From Alphaproteobacteria bacterium SS10 (GTDB taxonomy: Bacteria; Pseudomonadota; Alphaproteobacteria; TMED2): 64,000 bases of DNA. Below are positions 13,476 to 28,169 of the stretch, in pieces. Both the position numbers and the translations under genes were made by a program. The notes below the pieces were generated by a model. It was not told the origin of the DNA and did no database searches. It worked only from the letters and a program-made list of their open reading frames with translations. The DNA lies in the NCBI GenBank assembly GCA_019192455.1, contig JAHCML010000003.1, positions 683,201 to 747,200 on the forward strand, in the 5' to 3' direction. The first letter of the stretch is position 1, and each line of letters begins with the position of its first letter.

Positions 13476-13510
13476 AGGGCGCGGGCCGGTTAGGTGCTGG
13501 CGCCTTTTTT
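13476..13510 (+). terminator. Possible terminator after the TadG-like gene
   Basis: AGGGCGC (13476-13482) can pair with GCGCCTT (13500-13506, one G-U pair) across a 17-base loop, followed by TTTT. It overlaps the last codons of the convergent minus-strand gene. The loop is long, so confidence is moderate. Confidence 0.4.
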
Positions 13511-14101
13511 CGCTGGCTTACCCGCTGGTTTCTTGCTGCGGGTGGCAACTTTGCGCCCGGTTTTGGCGCCTGAGGCGAAGTGATCCTTCGGGATCTCAAC
13601 CGGCCACCATTGATCCCGTGAATTCTGGAACTCCTTGAGGCCACCAAGGCGTCGGTTCCGGATTTGCCACGCCCTGAAGCTAGAGCGGAACGAGGCCGTC
13701 AAAAGGACAGAGAGTGGCCCAAGGCCAAGCACAGCAATGGCAACATCGACGGTGCTTGCTGCGGTTATCAGTAGGTAAATCAGGTAGAGAGCAGCCAGGG
13801 CAGCGATAACCAGAAACAGAATGGCGCCACCACGTTGCCGCTGATAGGCGCTATACAAATCGTCGGGCCCCAAGTTTTGGCGGTTGATTGCCTCTTCAAA
13901 GGTTTCGGTTCGGGCCTTCTGATTACCCTCGACCAGGGCCTCGAACATGTTCTTCGTCATGCCCGCGGTGTCGCTGATCTCCTTTACCGGCAGGAAGGTA
14001 CGTTGGACCCAGCCGCCAAGACCGCCTTTATCCTTCTTCCGCTTCTTCCAGCGTCCGGCCTTTGGCTCTTCGCTCTCAGTTTTATTGCTCTGGTCTGTCA
14101 T
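13490..14101 (-). CDS. IcmV/TraX-like type IVB secretion membrane protein
   Basis: A 203-residue inner-membrane protein. A basic N-terminus (KKRKKDKGG) precedes ETFEEAINRQNLGPDDL (residues 66-82), then two membrane helices (about 92-113 and 117-137), then SFRAWQIRNRRLGGLKEF (about 141-158) and a Lys/Ala-rich tail. This succession, ETFE-Q/E-A...R..L...DL, paired helices, then an F..W/Q-I-R/K-R-LG segment, is how I remember Legionella IcmV (TraX in IncI plasmids), though the present protein is about 50 residues longer. IcmV lies beside icmW and dotA in Legionella, as here. The assignment is from remembered patterns, not an alignment; an unrelated two-helix membrane protein is the alternative. 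Confidence 0.5.
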   Translation of the reverse strand: MTDQSNKTESEEPKAGRWKKRKKDKGGLGGWVQRTFLPVKEISDTAGMTKNMFEALVEGNQKARTETFEEAINRQNLGPDDLYSAYQRQRGGAILFLVIAALAALYLIYLLITAASTVDVAIAVLGLGPLSVLLTASFRSSFRAWQIRNRRLGGLKEFQNSRDQWWPVEIPKDHFASGAKTGRKVATRSKKPAGKPAKKGAST

Positions 14102-14289: not shown

Positions 14290-15495
14290 TTAGAAGTCCA
14301 CCGGCGCGATGGCGCTATCGTTGGTCTTATCAACGAAGAAGGTATTGGTTTCTGCCGCTTGGATGCCGGCGATCAGGCCAGCTTGCATCTGTTGAACCTC
14401 GAAACGCTGCCAACGCAGGAACATGGTCGTTGCGCGGATCGCGGCAATCTGTTGCCAGACAGAGGCGGAATCACCAAGCGCTTGGGTCAGGGTGAACCAG
14501 CGCGGGTTCGTCGCCCGGTAGCTGGCCGCAAAACGAAGCATTTCAAAGAAGCTGCTGCCTTCCGCGCCAGGTGAGCGCTCGCTCAAGTAATCCGGCACAC
14601 CATCGGCGAGGCCGCTGGTAAGGGCGCGCATCCGCTCCGCCCAGGCATTGGTTTCAGCGCTATCGGTCTCTGCCCGGATGCCGGCCATGTATTGGCAGGT
14701 CTGGAACACGAGGGCCATCCGCGCGGTATAGGTTTCACGGTGATGGGCCCGCTGATAACGCTCTGGCGTCATAACCGTGCTCAGCACCTGTGGTGGTGCG
14801 CTGCCAACAACAGAGCGACAGAAGTCGATGGAGGCATCGCGGAAGCGTTCGGTGACAACCGAGTAACCCACAAGGGTTTCGGCGCGGGAATCTGCATCCT
14901 TGAGGCCTTCCTCTGCCACGGTACAGCCAGTGATTTCAGCGAGGCGGTCGCCGCAATACTCATCCTCCGTGCGCTGGTTCTGCCATTGCGCATTGGCGGA
15001 GCGAGTACTGTTGGACGTGTCACGCGTTAGACCACGAAGCCATTCGACATTCTCTTCCAGAATTGCCGCCTGGTGGGTCATCTGATCGGCATCAATCACA
15101 CCAGACACCGAGGCCACGGTGGCTTGGAAGCTGTGGTCAGGGTTTTCTTGCTGGCGGATATTCTGACGATAGGCGAGGGCCTGACGCCGGTTATTGGCAT
15201 AGGCGCTGAGGTGGTGGCTGCCCATCTCAGTATCGGCCTGGGTGTTACCGCTAATCTGCGCGTTTAGGGCAGAGAAGTTGAACGCCAGGAGAATGTAGGT
15301 CCAGGCAATCCAGGCCTGGGTGTAAACGGTGATCGTGGTGCCGGTCAGACGGACCATAGCAGCACTGGCAAAACATGGGCATTTGGCGCTTCGTGCTTCC
15401 CGCATAGCGAGGGTGGCGCCGGCAGCAATGCCGATGCACACAACAATGACCAGCATTGACTGCCAAACTCTGGATCGTCTGGTTTGTATCTGCAT
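14290..15495 (-). CDS. Exported protein, paralogue pair A, member 1
   Basis: A 401-residue protein of unknown function with an N-terminal signal or anchor (about residues 12-35, after a basic start) followed at once by KCPC. It is a paralogue of the gene just upstream (15573-16727). Shared points in order are: C-x-C at the mature N-terminus; F.FSALNAQIS against F.GAINASLS; YCGDRLAEITGC against YCGLRSEMLGRC; FEMLRFAASYRATNPRW against YEVMALQNEFRFKSPDW; and WQRFEVQQ against WKRFELDQ. A membrane-like stretch (WIAWTYILLAFNF) occurs near residues 62-74. It is last in the icmW operon. The position matches icmX/traW of other type IVB systems, but I see no sequence proof of that identity. Confidence 0.75.
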   Translation of the reverse strand: MQIQTRRSRVWQSMLVIVVCIGIAAGATLAMREARSAKCPCFASAAMVRLTGTTITVYTQAWIAWTYILLAFNFSALNAQISGNTQADTEMGSHHLSAYANNRRQALAYRQNIRQQENPDHSFQATVASVSGVIDADQMTHQAAILEENVEWLRGLTRDTSNSTRSANAQWQNQRTEDEYCGDRLAEITGCTVAEEGLKDADSRAETLVGYSVVTERFRDASIDFCRSVVGSAPPQVLSTVMTPERYQRAHHRETYTARMALVFQTCQYMAGIRAETDSAETNAWAERMRALTSGLADGVPDYLSERSPGAEGSSFFEMLRFAASYRATNPRWFTLTQALGDSASVWQQIAAIRATTMFLRWQRFEVQQMQAGLIAGIQAAETNTFFVDKTNDSAIAPVDF

Positions 15496-15572
15496 GATCC
15501 GTTACCCCACAAACTTGGGCTTAAGCGCCCTGTTCTGTCCCTATACTCGTCCGTCTTACCGTGGCTTAGCCC

Positions 15573-16727
15573 TTACTCTGTCCGGACGTAGGATTCTTCA
15601 GCCTTGGTCGCCAGGATTACGGCCAGGTTGCTGGCAATCCGCTGATCCAGCTCAAACCGCTTCCACTCGGTATAGAGGTTGGTGGCTTCCATCACGGCGA
15701 GTTCTTTGAGAATTGGCAGTTCCGATGGGGTGCCGGCCATGATGCCGTTAACCCAGTCGGGTGACTTGAAGCGGAACTCATTCTGCAGCGCCATCACCTC
15801 GTACAGGCTTTGGCTATCAGCGTGCGGGTTACCGCCGTTGATATTTGGGTCGCTTGAGCCGGTGACGTGCTCACGCAGGTTGTCGGCCCAGACGGCATCC
15901 TCTTCGCCCACCTCTTTCTTAAGGCCGGTGAGGTACTCAAAGGTCTCCATCATGGTGTCGACCCGTGCGTCACGGGTTACCCGGTCACGCAGCTTCACTT
16001 GACCCAACGGGGTTGCATAATCCTGCCCAACCGGTGGTGGTGGGGTAGGGCCGGCAACGATCTGGGCGAAATCATTCGCCGCCCGGGCAAGCTGGTCATC
16101 CAGCGTATCATACTGCATCAGCAGCGGCTTGATATGTGCGTCCCGCAGCTCTGGGCGGTCAGACACCTCTGATTCAGCAAAGGTACAGCGGCCCAGCATC
16201 TCAGAACGGAGGCCGCAATACCGGCTCTCCATCTCCTCAAGCGTCGCCGTGGCATTTGCCGCGGCCGTGCCTGAAGTGGTGGTGGTCAGGTTACGCAGAT
16301 GCATGTCGTTGGCTTCACTGAGCTGACGACGAACCTGCAAGGAACCCAAAGATTTTGGACCTGTGCGGGTCGAGGCATCGTAACCGGAGACACAAGCATC
16401 AACACCGGAAGTGAAGTCAGTCACCACCTGGTGGCGTGCTTCCATCCGGGCGAGTTGGGTATACTCACTATTCTGATAGCTGGTCACTTCAGCCATGGTT
16501 GATTGTTGTGCAGACAGGCTGGCATTGATCGCACCAAATGACTGGCTGATCATCAGGGTTAGCATGCCAAAGCCGGCACTAATTGCGCCGGTGGATGTGG
16601 CAACCGTGCTCGCATAAGCCGGTGGCAAGCAACCGCAAGCCTCGGCATCGGCGGGCATGTAGCTGATTGCCACCCCGGCAAACAGCGAAGTAGCCAACAG
16701 TGCTGACTTAAACTTCTTACCCATCAT
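15573..16727 (-). CDS. Exported protein, paralogue pair A, member 2
   Basis: A 384-residue protein with a clear Sec signal (KKFKSALLATSLFAGVAISYMPADAEA) and then ACGC, giving a C-x-C at the mature N-terminus. Further Cys lie in DACVSG and in YCGLRSEMLGRC. A weak hydrophobic stretch (GFGMLTLMISQSFGAI) follows the signal. It is a paralogue of the next gene in the operon (14290-15495). I start at 16727 because GGGGG lies 8 bases upstream; a GTG one codon earlier is also possible. It probably acts in the periplasm or at the cell surface as part of the type IVB machinery. No known domain recognised. Confidence 0.75.
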   Translation of the reverse strand: MMGKKFKSALLATSLFAGVAISYMPADAEACGCLPPAYASTVATSTGAISAGFGMLTLMISQSFGAINASLSAQQSTMAEVTSYQNSEYTQLARMEARHQVVTDFTSGVDACVSGYDASTRTGPKSLGSLQVRRQLSEANDMHLRNLTTTTSGTAAANATATLEEMESRYCGLRSEMLGRCTFAESEVSDRPELRDAHIKPLLMQYDTLDDQLARAANDFAQIVAGPTPPPPVGQDYATPLGQVKLRDRVTRDARVDTMMETFEYLTGLKKEVGEEDAVWADNLREHVTGSSDPNINGGNPHADSQSLYEVMALQNEFRFKSPDWVNGIMAGTPSELPILKELAVMEATNLYTEWKRFELDQRIASNLAVILATKAEESYVRTE

Positions 16728-16893
16728 CACATCTACCCCCTCGTCACACGGCCCAATGCCGCATTGATCGATTACATCCTTTGATCCGCGCTCTATCGTT
16801 CGAGCGGTAGGGGCGAGCCCCTAAACGGACCAACTAAGTCAAAGCCAAACCGAACAAGCTGGTTCGGCATCCATTGCCTATCGCTTCAAACCG

Positions 16894-17436
16894 CTATCGA
16901 AGGATTATCGACTCCGGCCCAATAGGCGAAACCAAGTCCAGATTGATGTTACCACCCGGCACACCATTGCCGCGGGTCACACCGATCTCAAAGCTGCCAC
17001 CAATCCAATCGGTATAGGTGTTACCAAAGATGGTGATCGGAATTTCTGGTAGCTGGAATTGCGCGCTCAGCTGGCTGATGATCGCGTCCCATTTCGACGT
17101 GATCTGTTGGCACAGCCGGTCAATGATCCGGGTCAGTAGGGCGCTGAAGTCAGGCCAGGTCAGAATCAGTCCAATATTCATCGCCAGGCTCATAAGCTGA
17201 TCCAGGCAATCAACGATTTGCTTCACGTGACCTGGGTTCGGCAGGGCATCAATCGCGGATTGAACAAACTCATCCTTCGTGTGCTCAACCAACCGTTCCA
17301 CATAGTCACAGATATCCGGAATACAGGGGTCAAAATCCGCAGCCTCGGCCTGCTGCGTTGGCGTCATGGCGAGTAGGAAGACTGCAAACAGCCCCCCAAT
17401 CATCAGCCGCCAGCTCGATCGCATCATATCGGCCAT
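16894..17436 (-). CDS. Exported small protein, paralogue pair B, member 1
   Basis: A 180-residue protein with a signal peptide (to about residue 32, ending AEAAD) and a strong GAGGGG site before its ATG. The mature protein begins DFDPCIPDICDY, and the core motif PGHVKQIVDCLDQLM (about residues 67-81) is shared almost exactly with the upstream paralogue (17565-18146). The C-terminal part (PEIPITIFGNTYTDWIGGS, then EIGVTRG, then SPIGPESIIL) also matches it. Cys of DPC, VDCL and LCQQ are conserved between the two. It looks like a helical then beta-rich periplasmic or surface protein. Function unknown; operon membership with icmW points to secretion. Confidence 0.75.
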   Translation of the reverse strand: MADMMRSSWRLMIGGLFAVFLLAMTPTQQAEAADFDPCIPDICDYVERLVEHTKDEFVQSAIDALPNPGHVKQIVDCLDQLMSLAMNIGLILTWPDFSALLTRIIDRLCQQITSKWDAIISQLSAQFQLPEIPITIFGNTYTDWIGGSFEIGVTRGNGVPGGNINLDLVSPIGPESIILR

Positions 17437-17564: not shown

Positions 17565-18146
17565 TTATTGCAGCGGGTTCAGGATCACCCGGTCCCGACC
17601 AATTGGTGAATTCAGTTGGATATCGATCTGACCCATCGGTGCCCCGCGGGTTAAGCCGCCGGATAGTGAGCCGCCAAACAGCGTCACATTCTCGCCGAGG
17701 ATATCTACTGTAATATCTGGGAACTGAATATTCGCCTGAATCTGGCTCACAACCTCATCCACCGCGCGGGTCGCTGCCTGGCAGGCCCGGTTAATCAGGT
17801 CGGATAGGATGTTCGACAGCAGTGCCTGCCAATTCAGATTGAAGATCGCACTCACCGTGATCCCGATATTCATCAGGTCAGCCAAGCAATCCACCACCTG
17901 CTTCACGTGACCCGGCTCAATGAAGGAGAGCGGAATCATCTCAATATATTTTGCCACCGCGTTGGCAATCCGCTCATCGAGTGAGCGCCGACGGTCGGGC
18001 GGGCAGGGGTCATTGGCGTAGTTATCACCAAAGCCCATAACGAACGAACCCTCGAGGCTGGCGCTAAAATCCGCCTTCGCATCGGAAGGCGCCATTACCG
18101 TCAGTCCCAGGGCCATTACCATCGCAATGAACAGGCCGCGTAACAT
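17565..18146 (-). CDS. Exported small protein, paralogue pair B, member 2
   Basis: A 193-residue protein with a signal peptide (MLRGLFIAMVMALGLTVMAP, cleavage near AKA-D). Its core PGHVKQVVDCLADLM and its end (PDITVDILGENVTLFGGS, GLTRGAP, SPIGRDRVIL) match the 180-residue neighbour. Conserved Cys occur in NDPC, VDCL and RACQ. I start at 18146 because GAGGGGG lies 7 bases upstream and this leaves a 4-base gap to the icmW stop; an in-frame ATG at 18170 would overlap icmW. Function unknown. The two B genes look like a tandem duplication, now quite diverged. Confidence 0.75.
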   Translation of the reverse strand: MLRGLFIAMVMALGLTVMAPSDAKADFSASLEGSFVMGFGDNYANDPCPPDRRRSLDERIANAVAKYIEMIPLSFIEPGHVKQVVDCLADLMNIGITVSAIFNLNWQALLSNILSDLINRACQAATRAVDEVVSQIQANIQFPDITVDILGENVTLFGGSLSGGLTRGAPMGQIDIQLNSPIGRDRVILNPLQ

Positions 18147-18150
18147 GATC

Positions 18151-18618
18151 TTACCCCCTCTTAATCGCATCCTGGATCAGCGCTAACCGCTCAGGTGCAA
18201 AAACCTTATACATCAAATCAAGCCGCGCCAGGTGGCGCAGTGAATCACGAACAACCCTACCGGCCTCAACGGCCGCATCGTCGCCCCCATTGGGCGATAG
18301 CAGATTGGCGGCAAGCGCGGCGCCATCGGCCCGCTCTTCTGCCAACCAAGATAATAAGCGTAATCGAGTAGACGCGCGCATGTAAGCAAAAGAAACGCGT
18401 GCGGCATCCACCAGCGACTGTGTCGCCGCCAGCTGGGCTAAGTCACCCTCTGGGATGGATTCCAGTGTTTCACCGAGTTTTTCGACAGCATCATTGATTT
18501 GGCCGTCGCTCTTCGGCGGCCAGGGCTCTGACTCTTCAATATGGGCGAGGGTGAGCGTCATATTCTCACCCTTATCTTCCCAATATGCCTGGATCGCTTC
18601 CGCGTCCAATTTCGGCAT
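18151..18618 (-). CDS. icmW: IcmW-like type IVB secretion adaptor
   Basis: A 155-residue acidic cytoplasmic protein that matches Legionella IcmW (151 residues) along its whole length as I remember that sequence. Agreeing parts are the start P.L..EA...YW.......T..HIEESEPW (IcmW: FMESVEDW), the helix AVEKLGETLESIPEGDLAQLA (AMKQLGQELDDI...DLGLLA), TRLRLLSWL (RGLRLLQAI), and the closing helix pair with LRHLARLDLMYK.....LALIQDA (LRLLSRVF..YRLKLVLRA). IcmW binds IcmS, and the pair loads effectors onto the DotL C-terminus. It heads a five-gene operon with a strong GAGGGGG site. Divergence from dotA repeats Legionella gene order. Confidence 0.72.
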   Translation of the reverse strand: MPKLDAEAIQAYWEDKGENMTLTLAHIEESEPWPPKSDGQINDAVEKLGETLESIPEGDLAQLAATQSLVDAARVSFAYMRASTRLRLLSWLAEERADGAALAANLLSPNGGDDAAVEAGRVVRDSLRHLARLDLMYKVFAPERLALIQDAIKRG

Positions 18619-19616: not shown

Positions 19617-19759
19617 TCACTGAGTTTAATGATGGTGATATGGCCAGCATGCTGGCTTTAGACTTTTTGAACTGAGTTTTTTTGGCAGTGGCCGTTCTGT
19701 TCTTATGAGGTGGGGGATTACCTCAGCAGATCTGGTTAGCCAGTTTGGGAGTGGGGGTT

Positions 19760-22654
19760 ATGAATTCTAACCTTTGGATGTTTGTCTGGATGGTTGCGGT
19801 GGCTTTGGTCGCCGTGGTTGTGCCAGGAGTTGCTTGGGCCAGTGGTGCGACGCCACCAGAGGCTGGTTCCGTTGAGGCAATCTGCCAAGGCGGGCTGTTC
19901 TGTGTGACGGCCCATGACGTGTCGGCAGGCTGGATTGCCGCGGCGTTCCCTGATTTGGTCCAATTGGCGACCGATGAGGCGCCAACCGGAACGCCGGTTG
20001 AGATCACGAGCCCGTCCACCACTCTCGCGGCTGCCTTGCAGGTTCTGAACTCTGCAGCCCTGGCGGTTGGTTCCTTGATCCTCACCTATAAGCTGTTGGC
20101 CGGTATCGTGCAGACAGCGAATGACGGTGAAGTGCTTGGTAAGCGCTGGTCGACCCTGTGGGGTCCAGTGCGTGTCGCCATTTCTGCGTCACTCATCGTG
20201 CCGACAGCATCAGGCTATTGCCTGGCGCAGGCGCTCGTGGTCGCGATTGCCCTGTCTGGTGTTGGCTTGGCCAACCGGATCTGGGAGGTCACGGTTGAGC
20301 AGATGATGACTGCCGATGGCATGATTGGCTCTCAAGTGCACCCACCGCACGAGCGAATCACCAAGCAGATCTTTGCGAATAACGTCTGTCTGCACCTGAT
20401 GAACGGCCTATGGCTGTATCACAAAGGTGATAATCCCCGTTCTGCGATTGAAGACGACGCCGCTAGTGCCGGTGGTTGGTCAGTGCACCCAAGCTGGGCT
20501 GGCTGGAACTGGACCGGTGCGGGCAACATCTATGCTGGCTTCCCTGGTGGTGGCCGTGACTTTGGTGGCGTTCAGTTTGCCAATGGTTCGCTGTTCTACC
20601 GTCGCGCTGACTGGCGTGGTGATGGTGATGGCTGGTTCGATCCAAGTGCAACCTACATGGGTTGGACGGTTGTCGATGTTGGCTGGTGGGAAGAGGTGAA
20701 ATCCTTCTTCGGTGCCTCTAAGCGTCCAGACAGCTGTGGTCGGGTTGATGTTCGGGTTCCAGAAGTTGATGCCAGCACTGGCAGCATCTGGACGTCGGTC
20801 ACCAATTTCTTCCGCGATGAAGAAGAAGTGACCGCAGAAGCGTCAGCTGCAGCAGCGCTGTCTGGCCTGGCCTACCGTGTTGCTCTGGTTCATACCGAGC
20901 AGATGGAAACCCTGGCTAAGCGGTTGGATAGAAACGCATGGCAGTTGGTTCAAACCGAACTGATCCAGCATTTAGACAACCCTGATGCTGCGTATCTGCG
21001 GACGCTTGAGCGACCACCAGAGGTGCATGGTGCAGAGATTGCCCAAGCGGCAATTGACTACCGCACAGCTGTGACCAGTCAGGTCAATAATGAGCTGCGC
21101 ACCTTCTTCACCAGTGAGCCATTGGCGCAGCAATATATCCGCGCCGCTAAGGATGGTGGTTGGGCAGTTGCGGGTGAATGGTTCCTGCAGATCATGAAGA
21201 TGAACGCCATGGTTCATCGCATGGTGAGTGCAACGCCGGTAACGACGGCTCAACCTGAGCATGATACGCTTTGCGACAAGATCAATTGCTCCGACGACAA
21301 CGTTGAGGCGATTGTGAATCGTGGCATCGACATCATGCGGAACTTCCATGATGACTCAGTGGCAAGCCACATGCGGGCGATGGCGAGTACGCCAGACCCG
21401 GATCCACAACTTCAGGCTCGCCTGCGGTCGATGTACCGGAGTGTTGGTTCCATCGGCAGCAACCAAATCATGGGTGGCAGCGCTGAAGAGCGGGCAATCC
21501 AGGTGGTGAGCAATCAGATCATGGCAATCGCCGCGGTCTACGCCACTGACATTGGTGCTGGTGTCCTGGCTGGTGACATGGGCTTCTCCGATGTCCTCGG
21601 TGAGGGTGTTGAAGGCCTGTTCATGGGTGGCTTGGTTGCCCTAACCGCTGACGGCTCCGCTGGTGCCGCTGTCGGTTCTGCGACTGCCGCTGCTGGTGAG
21701 GGTTTTGTTAGCCTGACCAATCTGCGGATGGATACCGGTAACAGTAACCCAATCGCTGCTGTGATCACCCTGGGCCGTGCGCTCTGGGCGACCGGCCTTG
21801 GTATCCTGTTCGCGGTTGATGACCGTCAGTTCACGCCGGCAGACGCCGCGACTGTGATGGCTCTAACCTCCATGCAGCAGGGTTCTGGCATCGTTGCCGG
21901 TGTCGGTTCTGAGCTACTGAGCGGTATGAGTGATCGCCTCGCCGGTATCATGGCGTGGATCGGTCGGATCATGCTTCTGCCGGGCTTCCTGCTTGGTTAC
22001 CTGTTCCCATATCTGCCTTGGCTGCTATGGGTTGGTGGCCTGGTCGGTTGGTTCATCCTGGTGATGGAGGCTGTGATCGCCGCACCATTGTGGGCTCTGG
22101 CTCACATGCGGATGGACGGTGAGGGCATCATGGGCCCAGCTGGTAACCAAGGTTACATGCTGGCTCTGGCGTTGCTCCTACGGCCTGCGTTGATGCTGAT
22201 TGGTCTGATCAGTGGCATGGTGTTGATCTATATCTTCGCACCATTCCTCGGGGTTAGCCTGATGGCGGTCAGTGAGTTGAACCGCGGTGCTGGTTCGGCC
22301 CTGGATCTGATGTCAGTGCTGATGTCGATCGGTCTCCTTGCCTTCGTGATGGTCACGACCTGCTACAAGGCCTTCGGGATGATCAACCAGGTGCCTGATC
22401 GGGTGCTTCGTTGGATCGGCTCCGGTGGCAGCAGTGATGGCCGCGAGGATGAGTTCCGCTCCGGTGCCTTCGCTCTGGTCAACGCGGCCTCCCTGACCGC
22501 TGGTGTCAGTGCCGCAGCCGGTGTCGGTGAAGAGCAAGGCAACAACGGTGCTGGGTCCGGTGAACAAGCCGGCGCCGATGGTGGCCGAGGCGGCTCCGGT
22601 CAGCGGATGTCCTCACGGGCAAGCCGGGCCAATGAGAACCTGCCAAGGCCGTAA
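19760..22654 (+). CDS. dotA: Type IVB secretion inner-membrane protein DotA
   Basis: A 964-residue polytopic membrane protein of the DotA/TraY family, about the size of Legionella DotA (1048). A signal-like N-terminus (MNSNLWMFVWMVAVALVAVV) precedes a periplasmic part. The family core follows: a helix with LTYKLLAGIVQTANDGEVLGKRW (split over about residues 115-135), then WGPVRVAISASLIVPTASGYCLAQ, the most conserved stretch. A long periplasmic loop separates the helices at about 90-180 from a C-terminal bundle of five to six helices (about 640-880), ending in a Gly-rich cytoplasmic tail. I start at ATG 19760 with GGGAG 8 bases upstream. DotA sits in the inner membrane of the Dot/Icm apparatus; its mechanistic role is not settled. 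Confidence 0.85.
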   Translation: MNSNLWMFVWMVAVALVAVVVPGVAWASGATPPEAGSVEAICQGGLFCVTAHDVSAGWIAAAFPDLVQLATDEAPTGTPVEITSPSTTLAAALQVLNSAALAVGSLILTYKLLAGIVQTANDGEVLGKRWSTLWGPVRVAISASLIVPTASGYCLAQALVVAIALSGVGLANRIWEVTVEQMMTADGMIGSQVHPPHERITKQIFANNVCLHLMNGLWLYHKGDNPRSAIEDDAASAGGWSVHPSWAGWNWTGAGNIYAGFPGGGRDFGGVQFANGSLFYRRADWRGDGDGWFDPSATYMGWTVVDVGWWEEVKSFFGASKRPDSCGRVDVRVPEVDASTGSIWTSVTNFFRDEEEVTAEASAAAALSGLAYRVALVHTEQMETLAKRLDRNAWQLVQTELIQHLDNPDAAYLRTLERPPEVHGAEIAQAAIDYRTAVTSQVNNELRTFFTSEPLAQQYIRAAKDGGWAVAGEWFLQIMKMNAMVHRMVSATPVTTAQPEHDTLCDKINCSDDNVEAIVNRGIDIMRNFHDDSVASHMRAMASTPDPDPQLQARLRSMYRSVGSIGSNQIMGGSAEERAIQVVSNQIMAIAAVYATDIGAGVLAGDMGFSDVLGEGVEGLFMGGLVALTADGSAGAAVGSATAAAGEGFVSLTNLRMDTGNSNPIAAVITLGRALWATGLGILFAVDDRQFTPADAATVMALTSMQQGSGIVAGVGSELLSGMSDRLAGIMAWIGRIMLLPGFLLGYLFPYLPWLLWVGGLVGWFILVMEAVIAAPLWALAHMRMDGEGIMGPAGNQGYMLALALLLRPALMLIGLISGMVLIYIFAPFLGVSLMAVSELNRGAGSALDLMSVLMSIGLLAFVMVTTCYKAFGMINQVPDRVLRWIGSGGSSDGREDEFRSGAFALVNAASLTAGVSAAAGVGEEQGNNGAGSGEQAGADGGRGGSGQRMSSRASRANENLPRP

Positions 22655-23588: not shown

Positions 23589-25985
23589 TTATGCTGTTGC
23601 CAGTTCTGCTGACTGCTCTTCACGCAGGGCTTTGATGAGGGCCTCAATCGTCTCGGGCACGTCATCACGCTTCGGCAGCACTGGCATATCGTCGCTTGGA
23701 TAATCGAGAGCTGCGGTCGCGGCATCCTCGATGGCGTCCAGGGCTTCCTGGGTTGCGATATCGTCGTCGAGCCAGGCTTCCTGAACCGCCCGAATACCGT
23801 CGATGACACCTGCTGCCTCGCTGCCCCAAATCTTGGCGCAGAGATCTTCGAAATCGTCGGCGCCAGCGGTGCCAGTGCTCGGCATAACCGGCATCTGTGC
23901 CACCGGTGCGCTGGCCTGCTTCGGTGCAGGCATGAAGGCAACTGGTTGGTCCGAACGCTCGCCCGCATCCTTCTTGCTGCCATCTTCGATTGGCGCAATC
24001 TCTTGGTCCGGCACTTCCATGGAGAAGGCGGTCGCACCAATGGCGGTTGTTGAGGCATCAAACAGGCTAACACCACGGTTCTTTGACGCTTCCATCGCCT
24101 GAACCGCCATGGCCAGCTCTTCCTCGAGCTTCGGCGCTTCCTGGGCGGCATTCATGGCCGTCCATTGCTCATCGCGCAGGCGCTCAAGCACGGGTTCCAC
24201 ATTACCGGCGCCAGTCATGGCTGGGTCTGGGAAGCGAACCGCGATAAAGCGGTTGAACCGTAGGCGGTTCGCGCTCTTCGGATTGGCGTAATACATCTTC
24301 ACCCGGGTCATCTTACCGCCGAAGAAGGTGTGGGATTCACCACTCTCTTGCAGGCGCAGATCGATGAACTCTGAGCGACGACGCTCACGAACCGAGGCGT
24401 TACGGATGTCGTTATAGTTGTTGAAGGTGGCGTTCGGATCCATGGTGAAGCCAGACACCTCAGCGGCGTAGAACGTGCCAGCGGTGGCATCGAACAGCTT
24501 GTTGGTGTGCTCCGGATCCTCTAGCTTCATGAAGGTCTTGATGTTGCAGTTAGCGATGATGGACTCAGCCTCTTTTTCAGAGCGCTTCTTCATCGCGCTA
24601 ACGTCCTGAGCGGCGAAGACCATCGAGAAACCGAGTGAGCGCGCCTGCGCTGCCATCACGGCCATGCCCGGCACGGTGTAGTAACCAACCTCATCCAGGA
24701 TCGATAGGAAGGGTGAGGAGGCGTTGGTTGGCTTGGTTGAGATGACGTTTGACCAGTCACCCTCAAGCTTGGCCCCCAGGGTGGCGGACATCATGCCCTT
24801 TAGGGAGGCAACAACGATCTTACCGATGTTTGCCAATTCATCCTCGGACTTCTCCAAGGCGGGCAGCAGGACCAGCAGGATCCGGCGGTTCACAACCACA
24901 TCGTACACATCGATATCGCCCAATTCGTGGTCGAAGATGTGGCCATAGGTACCGGATAGCGAGGTCAGGATCCTGGTGAACTGCATCTGCAGGTAACCAT
25001 GCTGATCGTTGGCGGTGGCGGCCTGTGGGCGCCCGGCGCGGGCCTCGTTCCAATCGAAGCCAGGCAAGCTATCCAGATAGTTCTTAAGCTGTGAGCGGGT
25101 CTTGGCGGGCAGCTCATAGGTGCCGTGCTTGTCGAGGTAGAGGTCGACAATTTTAGGCAGGTTGAGGAAGTCGCCCAGCGCTTCAATGTTCAAAAGCAGC
25201 TTGCCACGGTCACGTAGCTCACAAACCGCCATCATGATTGCGGTGAGGAGCGAGATCGCACGGCCTTTCCACATGTCACCTTCTTTACCGGGGTCATCCA
25301 TCAAGGAGACCAGCATCTCGGTAAGTGACCCTGCAGAGCCGCGAGAGAACGGGTTGAACGTATTACTCTCACCGCCGCCATCGCTGTTACCGGTCATGAA
25401 GTTCAGAATTAGAACGTCATCATCGCGGCCAAAGCGGCGGGCGAGGGAGTAAACCTTACCCCACAGGCTGGTATCACCCTTACCATCGCAGTACAGGAAG
25501 CCGGAGCCCCAGCTGAGTGCGTTGGAGGACATGGAGACCAGCGTCTCGGTCTTACCGGAACCGGTGGTGCCAAGGATTAGGAAGTGGGTACGGGCGTCAC
25601 TGTTGGAAAACCACAGCTCATCCCCGCCATTATCCAAATCATTGCCATAGAACAGAATGCCATCGGCGGTCTGGGCCTTACCCGTACCGGGATGCCGATC
25701 ATTGGGATCGGGCAGCATTGTTTGCGCAGGCAGCTTATAGGGCAGCTTCGCTGGCAGTTTGATCAGGTAGTAGAAATAGCCAGCGCCGATCATCATCGCG
25801 ATGTCAGACAGGGCCGGGAAGATCACACAGACGGCGATCAGGCTGGTCATGCCGATCGCGGCTAGGCTTGGGTCTTTGGCCCCTTCGAAGAACTGTTGGC
25901 CAAGGGTTCGGGTATCACGAAGGAAGGCAAGCGGTGAGTACTGAAACCGCTTTGTATCGACATACGGATTATTAGCCTTAGCCAT
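23589..25985 (-). CDS. dotL: Type IV coupling protein DotL/IcmO
   Basis: A 798-residue VirD4-class ATPase of the DotL (IcmO/TrbC) branch, against 783 in Legionella. Two membrane helices lie at about residues 42-75. Walker A is GTTGSGKT at 139-146, and Walker B is in LSILDEVGYY at about 425-434, followed by the QARSLGFSMVFAAQD motif. After the ATPase core (to about 590) comes a Glu/Ala-rich tail of about 200 residues. In Legionella that tail binds DotN, IcmS and IcmW, and since IcmS- and IcmW-like genes are present here it probably does the same. It selects substrates and passes them to the transporter at the inner membrane. It is the last gene of icmS - dotM - 233 aa - dotL. Confidence 0.92.
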   Translation of the reverse strand: MAKANNPYVDTKRFQYSPLAFLRDTRTLGQQFFEGAKDPSLAAIGMTSLIAVCVIFPALSDIAMMIGAGYFYYLIKLPAKLPYKLPAQTMLPDPNDRHPGTGKAQTADGILFYGNDLDNGGDELWFSNSDARTHFLILGTTGSGKTETLVSMSSNALSWGSGFLYCDGKGDTSLWGKVYSLARRFGRDDDVLILNFMTGNSDGGGESNTFNPFSRGSAGSLTEMLVSLMDDPGKEGDMWKGRAISLLTAIMMAVCELRDRGKLLLNIEALGDFLNLPKIVDLYLDKHGTYELPAKTRSQLKNYLDSLPGFDWNEARAGRPQAATANDQHGYLQMQFTRILTSLSGTYGHIFDHELGDIDVYDVVVNRRILLVLLPALEKSEDELANIGKIVVASLKGMMSATLGAKLEGDWSNVISTKPTNASSPFLSILDEVGYYTVPGMAVMAAQARSLGFSMVFAAQDVSAMKKRSEKEAESIIANCNIKTFMKLEDPEHTNKLFDATAGTFYAAEVSGFTMDPNATFNNYNDIRNASVRERRRSEFIDLRLQESGESHTFFGGKMTRVKMYYANPKSANRLRFNRFIAVRFPDPAMTGAGNVEPVLERLRDEQWTAMNAAQEAPKLEEELAMAVQAMEASKNRGVSLFDASTTAIGATAFSMEVPDQEIAPIEDGSKKDAGERSDQPVAFMPAPKQASAPVAQMPVMPSTGTAGADDFEDLCAKIWGSEAAGVIDGIRAVQEAWLDDDIATQEALDAIEDAATAALDYPSDDMPVLPKRDDVPETIEALIKALREEQSAELATA

Positions 25986-27044: not shown

Positions 27045-28169
27045 TTAAGCGTGATTTGTGGCGATAAACTCTTCGAGACCGAAGACTGCCTCATCCACAT
27101 CGGGTTCCGGCATGGGGCGTCGGGTGACGATCTCCGCACGCCAATGGGCAATCGCGCCGGCGGACTCAATCAGCGCGGTTGGGCGGCCAACGGCGTTCAA
27201 AACGTACCACATGGCCCGATCTTCAAGCTTCAACCACAGGAAGTCAGATGATGCCATCACACCGCCATTGATCCGTGACCAGTCGAGAATGGCCGCCATG
27301 GAGGTCTCAACCCAAGCATGCTGACGCGCAACTTTGGTTGGTTCGGCCATCATCTTCATATCGCGAAGGACCTTGTTCACCATCTTGGTCAGCTTGGCAT
27401 CCTTGGACAGCGCCTTCTCAGCAGAGCCGAAATTGGCTGCGCCCCGGGAAAGGCGGCGCAGGATCTCTTCGCAATCATCGCCCTTCTTGTTGCCGCGTAA
27501 GACAAGGGCCGCAACCAAGGCCTGGAGATAGGGTGGGAGCTCAGAAACTGCTGTCCATGGGCGTCGCAGCTGCCTGGATAACGCAGCCCGTGCCGCCTCA
27601 CGATCCGGTGCGCCATCTTCGATCTGGACGCCGTGGCGATCAGCCCATTCCTTCGGGTCTAGCGCCTCAAGCCAGGCGCCTTCCTTGTCGTCGAGCGGGT
27701 TGTTTTTCACGATCGGGCTAATCGCGAACCATTTCTGGCTTTGGTACTTAATTAACCGGCCCAGATCGTAGAACTTCCGCAGCACCGAGTTCGGGTGCTT
27801 GAACATCAGAAACCATGTGAAAAACATGATGATGAAGATGGAAGGCCAGGCGATATAGGGGCCGACATAGCCGGAGATGTTGGCAATATCAGACCATTGG
27901 TACTGTCCTGGTGGTACTGCCATCATGGCCCGCCGATAGGCCTCCATGCTCGCCGCTTCGTCCTGAAGCCCCGGCCAGACAAAGCCGACGAGCCAAAAAA
28001 ACGTGCTGATCAACCACATTTCAATGCTGCGGAGATGTAGGACAGCCGAGTGAATAATGTCCTTGTTGTAGAGATACAGCAGGTAGAGCATGCCGAGGCC
28101 AAAGCCCATCAGCATGACAATGCCCATCAGCGGATCTGATTGATTGTTGTTACCGCCGCCCTGTGCCAT
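27045..28169 (-). CDS. dotM: Type IVB coupling-complex protein DotM/IcmP
   Basis: A 374-residue inner-membrane protein, the length of Legionella DotM (about 376). Three membrane helices (about residues 14-34, 48-66, 108-126) precede a cytoplasmic domain. The C-terminal third carries the family hallmarks: RQHAWVETSMAAILDWSR, GVMASSDFLWLKLEDRAMWY and LNAVGR...LIESAGAIAHW, which are very like the DotM pattern of LASAEFLWLK..DR.LWY.LN.VGR. Basic patches on this domain recruit effectors with acidic Glu-rich signals in Legionella. DotM works with DotL at the inner membrane. The ATG has AGAGG upstream. It is 121 bases downstream of the icmS-like gene. Confidence 0.9.
   Translation of the reverse strand: MAQGGGNNNQSDPLMGIVMLMGFGLGMLYLLYLYNKDIIHSAVLHLRSIEMWLISTFFWLVGFVWPGLQDEAASMEAYRRAMMAVPPGQYQWSDIANISGYVGPYIAWPSIFIIMFFTWFLMFKHPNSVLRKFYDLGRLIKYQSQKWFAISPIVKNNPLDDKEGAWLEALDPKEWADRHGVQIEDGAPDREAARAALSRQLRRPWTAVSELPPYLQALVAALVLRGNKKGDDCEEILRRLSRGAANFGSAEKALSKDAKLTKMVNKVLRDMKMMAEPTKVARQHAWVETSMAAILDWSRINGGVMASSDFLWLKLEDRAMWYVLNAVGRPTALIESAGAIAHWRAEIVTRRPMPEPDVDEAVFGLEEFIATNHA

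Follow-up and report, generated by a model that had tools for sequence, protein, structure and literature searches.

Two adjacent genes of Alphaproteobacteria bacterium SS10, here called CxC-A and CxC-B, are very probably diverged, lineage-specific duplicates of TraW/IcmX that stand in the VirB5 place of a type IVB secretion machine, and would provide alternative or mixed tip subunits on DotA. They lie in a window of 64,000 nucleotides (contig JAHCML010000003.1, positions 683,201 to 747,200), which is the whole stretch of DNA analysed here. Judged by their sequences, the two are clear paralogues, and their assignment to the TraW family as distant homologues, reached by way of intermediate relatives, is well supported. 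The TraW/IcmX slot is itself known. Its multi-copy form, with a cell-wall-domain fusion, is a variant, and this amplification is the less expected part.

The operon reads IcmW, two small exported Cys proteins, CxC-A, CxC-B and IcmV, with DotA divergent, followed by a TrbC/DotL-like gene and DotM (Table 1). An alternative GTG start for CxC-A is possible at 16730. A scan for promoters and terminators returned no more than expected by chance.

Table 1 Type IVB genes around the CxC-A/CxC-B pair, with positions in the window.
Feature	Position	Strand	Length	Remarks
IcmV/TraX-like protein	13490..14101	-		NF038219 E 3.8e-12, below cut-off
CxC-B	14290..15495	-	401 aa	tandem paralogue of CxC-A; nearest to C5 paralogue in tree
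C-x-C (CPC) of CxC-B	15373..15381	-		presumed mature N-terminus; sequence and alignment
CxC-A	15573..16727	-	384 aa from ATG	predicted exported TraW/IcmX-like protein, VirB5 slot
C-x-C (CGC) of CxC-A	16629..16637	-		presumed mature N-terminus; sequence and alignment
Small 3-Cys protein, copy 2, predicted exported	16894..17436	-		family immediately precedes TraW in related loci
Small 3-Cys protein, copy 1, predicted exported	17565..18170	-		tandem paralogue of copy 2
IcmW-like protein	18151..18618	-		PF23130 E 5.2e-16; NF038222 3.6e-16, below cut-off
DotA/TraY, VirB6 slot	19745..22654	+		TIGR04346 E 2.7e-91; only DotA found in genome
Coupling ATPase, TrbC/DotL-like	23589..25985	-		NF041447 E 3.5e-121, below cut-off; PF12696
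DotM/IcmP-like	27045..28169	-		PF23127 E 9.6e-46

Inspection of the translations and their hydropathy finds, in both proteins, a signal-like hydrophobic N-terminal segment that is followed directly by C-x-C. The translations also give a YCG...C motif (YCGLRSEMLGRC in CxC-A, YCGDRLAEITGC in CxC-B), FGAINA against FSALNA, a (Y/F)E(M/V) block (YEVMALQNEFRFKSPDW and FEMLRFAASYRATNPRW, respectively), and near the C-terminus WKRFE in CxC-A and WQRFE in CxC-B. The open reading frames, N-termini and motifs described in the initial annotation are thus all present. The signal segment was judged by eye and by hydropathy, and the N-termini have no consistent lipobox. A reading as lipoproteins was rejected: the residues leading up to the Cys are AEAC, SAKC and GHWC in the three copies of this genome.

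BLASTP aligns CxC-A and CxC-B over nearly their full length, with 26.7% identity over 389 columns (E 4.9e-27), and two further searches also match the pair at E 5e-29 and 5e-28. For the mature parts, the local score is 267, compared to 39 (sd 6) for 500 shuffles, of which the highest reached 61. The earlier description of strongly diverged tandem duplicates holds, at about 26-27% identity. Together with a third copy elsewhere in the genome, the pair forms a single clade (support 100/100), which marks the duplications as lineage-specific.

The link to TraW needs intermediates. Searched directly against Pfam, NCBIfam and PHROGs, the window pair gave nothing usable; a YccS match to CxC-B at 0.002 was discarded, as it is fragmentary and scores 16 bits where the cut-off is 470. 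Relatives that share these motifs were found directly upstream of DotA in another alphaproteobacterial genome, G287 (class survey), and, in plasmid searches, in conjugation gene clusters of Sinorhizobium, Aminobacter and a P. aeruginosa MPF_I plasmid. For the Aminobacter cluster, the listed gene table has no DotA gene. A family HMM built from 27 relatives, with TraW left out, recovers the TraW of plasmid R64 (E 2e-11). The next-best R64 ORF scores 0.095, and the best of 2000 shuffled TraW sequences 0.07. The initial annotation could not tie the pair firmly to any named family, a view that this match supersedes. Its statement that the pair occupies the place of icmX/traW is borne out by the position in the operon, and also by homology to TraW itself.

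Comparison with TraW profiles came out positive for the family HMM, but the window proteins do not match NF033888, the curated conj_TraW model, at E 1. NF033888 alone matches 7 of 25 aligned sequences, with R64 TraW among the 7. It gives E 1.2e-8 for the Pseudomonas plasmid member and 3.1e-5 for the G287 member. It is an equivalog model with a curated cut-off of 100 bits, of which these two relatives reach 34.5 and 23.3. The pair is not filed in this equivalog because the cut-off is not reached. In the alignment, the mid-protein YC...C pair is common to the window proteins and R64 TraW. C-x-C is a lineage feature; several family members lack it, so it does not define the family. According to a published table, TraW corresponds to VirB5/IcmX, TraY to VirB6/DotA and TraR to VirB2 (PMC12624023).

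Searches of PDB sequences with the family profile matched no type IV secretion chain, although the PDB set contains DotA (entries 9ngy and 9nh0), and a search with TraW had no match. Scans of viral contigs for the family found nothing. AlphaFold, given 10 sequences, modelled full-length CxC-A at a pLDDT of 38.5; its C-terminal part reached 49.2, and the models are all helical. With these low-confidence models, a PDB fold search returned no significant match; what it listed were generic helical proteins, BAR domains among them. Given such poor models and so uninformative a fold search, no VirB5/IcmX fold is claimed.

The cassette IcmW - small exported - TraW - IcmV - DotA recurs, whole or in part, on plasmids of Rhizobiales and Pseudomonas. 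The fullest cassettes have a small exported Cys protein upstream of the TraW-like gene and IcmV/TraX downstream, and the TraW-like gene is found beside traX/icmV and traY/dotA. On the P. aeruginosa plasmid the order is IcmW (PF23130 9.9e-18), small exported, CxC, CxC.

Further genes of the machine are found at a second locus, about 0.8 Mb away. It holds DotB (above cut-off), DotC/TraI, DotD, DotN/IcmJ, TraQ and the TraU/DotO ATPase, as well as IcmT, DotH, three tandem TraR-like DUF6750 genes and type IVB pilus genes. The DUF6750 genes, of the R64 TraR family and in the VirB2 slot, are at L064:13922-15270 (contig C3). With this gene set, IcmT and DotH included, the type IVB machine looks near complete and chromosomal.

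An independently run DotA scan of GTDB genome contigs yielded 25 loci. In 13 of these, the homologue lies upstream of DotA, about 1.8 kb away and in the same orientation. One of the 13 is broken: in Brucella oryzae (L062:8212-9328), the TraW-like gene upstream of DotA is split into three reading frames; intact relatives are present in other loci. Across 337 alphaproteobacterial genomes the family occurs in 7 and DotA in 15, and all 7 family-positive genomes also have DotA (P 7e-11 for the overlap, with shared ancestry not corrected for). A phylum sample of 398 adds three further positives, each with DotA beside the gene. These surveys support a restriction of the family to type IVB genomes, and no homologue was seen in a genome without type IVB genes, either in the 337 alphaproteobacterial genomes or in the phylum sample of 398.

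A genome search turned up the third paralogue, a protein of 920 aa on contig C5 of the same genome (L005:11545-14307). Its first 320 and last 85 residues are a TraW-like domain, with about 500 residues inserted between them. The insert contains an M23 peptidase domain (PF01551 E 3.4e-21, residues 653-758) and a far weaker phage-lysozyme-like stretch (PF18013 E 0.02, below cut-off). HxxxD is kept in the M23 domain as PHKAVD. The HxH position reads HLD, which makes M23 activity of this copy doubtful as far as its sequence can tell. The nearest neighbours of the C5 gene include peptide-transporter genes and no type IV genes.

TraW-like copies were counted with a wider family profile in the DotA-positive alphaproteobacteria. 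G136 has five, G101 has four in tandem, and G318, G236, G089 and the window genome, sole representative of its order in the genome set, have three each. G287 has one and G045 at least one; in the other seven DotA-positive alphaproteobacterial genomes the wider profile detected no TraW-like copy. The Pseudomonas plasmid has two in tandem. In the tree, where the window genome's three copies are joined at 100/100, CxC-B groups with the C5 copy at 98/94. Two G101 copies, and likewise copies of G136, G236 and G318, fall in separate clades of their own, from which it follows that amplification happened repeatedly. The deeper nodes are weak, and R64 TraW sits on a long branch. Some G318 and G136 copies carry long N-terminal extensions.

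Mechanistically, the published DotA-IcmX and VirB6-VirB5 assemblies offer a template. The DotA-IcmX pentameric protochannel opens into a trans-envelope channel (PMC12857230, PMC12981334). On this model each CxC protein would be exported by Sec, after which C-x-C would become the mature N-terminus and form a disulfide. A ring, probably of five copies, would be assembled on periplasmic DotA, and would be the top of a stalk or protochannel, which on firing of the machine would extend to or through the outer membrane. The genome has three TraW-like and three TraR-like genes but one DotA, which suggests exchangeable or mixed tips. The paralogues may then be alternative or mixed tips on one DotA platform and serve to vary or adjust how the machine contacts its target cell, a role that has been proposed for Bartonella Trw. 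With the C5 paralogue, a cell-wall-binding or cell-wall-cutting module would be brought to the tip position.

Known systems resemble parts of this arrangement. R64 TraW (IncI1; NF033888) shares with the window proteins a signal-like N-terminus, a length of about 400 aa, the YC...C pair and the C-terminal block, and traW is likewise followed by traX and then traY. Unlike the window proteins, it has no C-x-C, and it is single-copy in the transfer region read. IcmX of Dot/Icm shares the slot according to the published table, and the window genes adjoin IcmV/IcmW and DotA; this likeness is one of slot and position. In Bartonella Trw, genes for VirB5 and VirB2 (TrwJ and TrwL) were amplified and diversified, and neighbours were co-duplicated (PMC2883598). 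The likeness to the window genome is one of gene content. Trw is however a type IVA system without a coupling protein, whereas the window genome has a type IVB system with coupling-complex genes (DotL-like, DotM, DotN). VirB1-type cell-wall enzymes (general knowledge and PMC12624023) resemble the C5 copy in having a peptidoglycan-hydrolase-like domain with a possible role in a type IV machine. These are separate enzymes, while the M23-like domain of C5 is inserted inside a VirB5-slot protein and has a changed zinc-ligand position.

Within the reading as TraW/IcmX duplicates, CxC-A and CxC-B might form an obligate heteromer and divide the roles between them, one perhaps as a structural stalk subunit and the other as an exported tip or adhesin, each with its own small exported Cys partner. 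The initial annotation had also thought of a heterodimer or a surface fibre, and of disulfides or a metal at the paired Cys. The small exported and TraW-like genes are both tandem-duplicated in the same operon, 2:2, the two CxC proteins are at about 26% identity yet keep all key motifs, and tandem copies occur in several separate lineages. The Pseudomonas plasmid, however, combines two TraW-like genes with one small exported gene, and B groups with the C5 copy rather than A, so A and B are no long-standing fixed pair. This sub-model has an appreciable chance of being right, short of even. Tandem duplication is frequent in genomes, and both A and B sit in one operon; the amplified copies could be redundant or neutral, retained through gene dosage or drift, and lack any specialised role. 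This is unlikely: despite long branches, the frames are intact and the Cys and C-terminal motifs are conserved in all three copies, one copy gained a domain, and the same gene was amplified repeatedly in other genomes.

The conserved C-x-C and second Cys pair, and the missing direct database family for the window pair, would also suit a cysteine-based surface fibre or metal-binding protein that is unrelated to TraW and merely in its place. The profile homology to R64 TraW, which takes in the YC...C pair and the C-terminal block, largely refutes this, and several family members lack C-x-C, which leaves the proposal very improbable. It is hardly to be expected either that the proteins are translocated substrates, effectors encoded next to system genes. 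A shortened form of IcmX itself has been reported from culture supernatant (PMC12981334), but the Sec-type signal-like N-termini, the fixed position inside an apparatus operon and the presence on conjugative plasmids speak against it.

A broader proposal goes beyond the preferred reading of A and B as TraW/IcmX duplicates. In the chromosomal type IVB systems of several alphaproteobacterial lineages, the VirB5/IcmX tip could now be a multigene family of 3-5 copies that gives alternative tips on DotA platforms, one of them with a cell-wall-hydrolase-like insert that helps the channel pass its own or the target wall. This is put forward tentatively, and is rather improbable in its full form. DotA-IcmX has only recently been described as the type IVB protochannel. 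An IcmX slot that is amplified, diversified and once fused to a cell-wall domain provides natural variants with which to ask whether the tip acts as pore, drill, adhesin or gate. The family also gives annotators a means of identifying TraW/IcmX among the genes of alphaproteobacteria and plasmids that are now called hypothetical.

Some further observations concern the other genomes and the small proteins. Arrays of three to five TraW-like genes are at L075:6430-11195, L076:7004-12984 and G136 C6:69412-78750, with extended members of, for example, 1063 aa. A 608-aa TraW-like protein of G136 (L097:745-2571) has an N-terminal part that looks lytic-transglycosylase-like by eye; neither Pfam nor the PDB supports this. 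Several genomes have multiple DotA genes in tandem (G136 C6:298640-306110; G318 C3:200507-208274; G236 C16; G218 C14; G307 C36), and the window genome has a single one. The two small 3-Cys proteins of the window are 32.5% identical (E 3e-29). In loci of Rhizobiales, Burkholderiales and Pseudomonas, a member of their family immediately precedes TraW, and the family HMM matches a 115-aa ORF of R64 (L016:31209-31556) at 1e-7.
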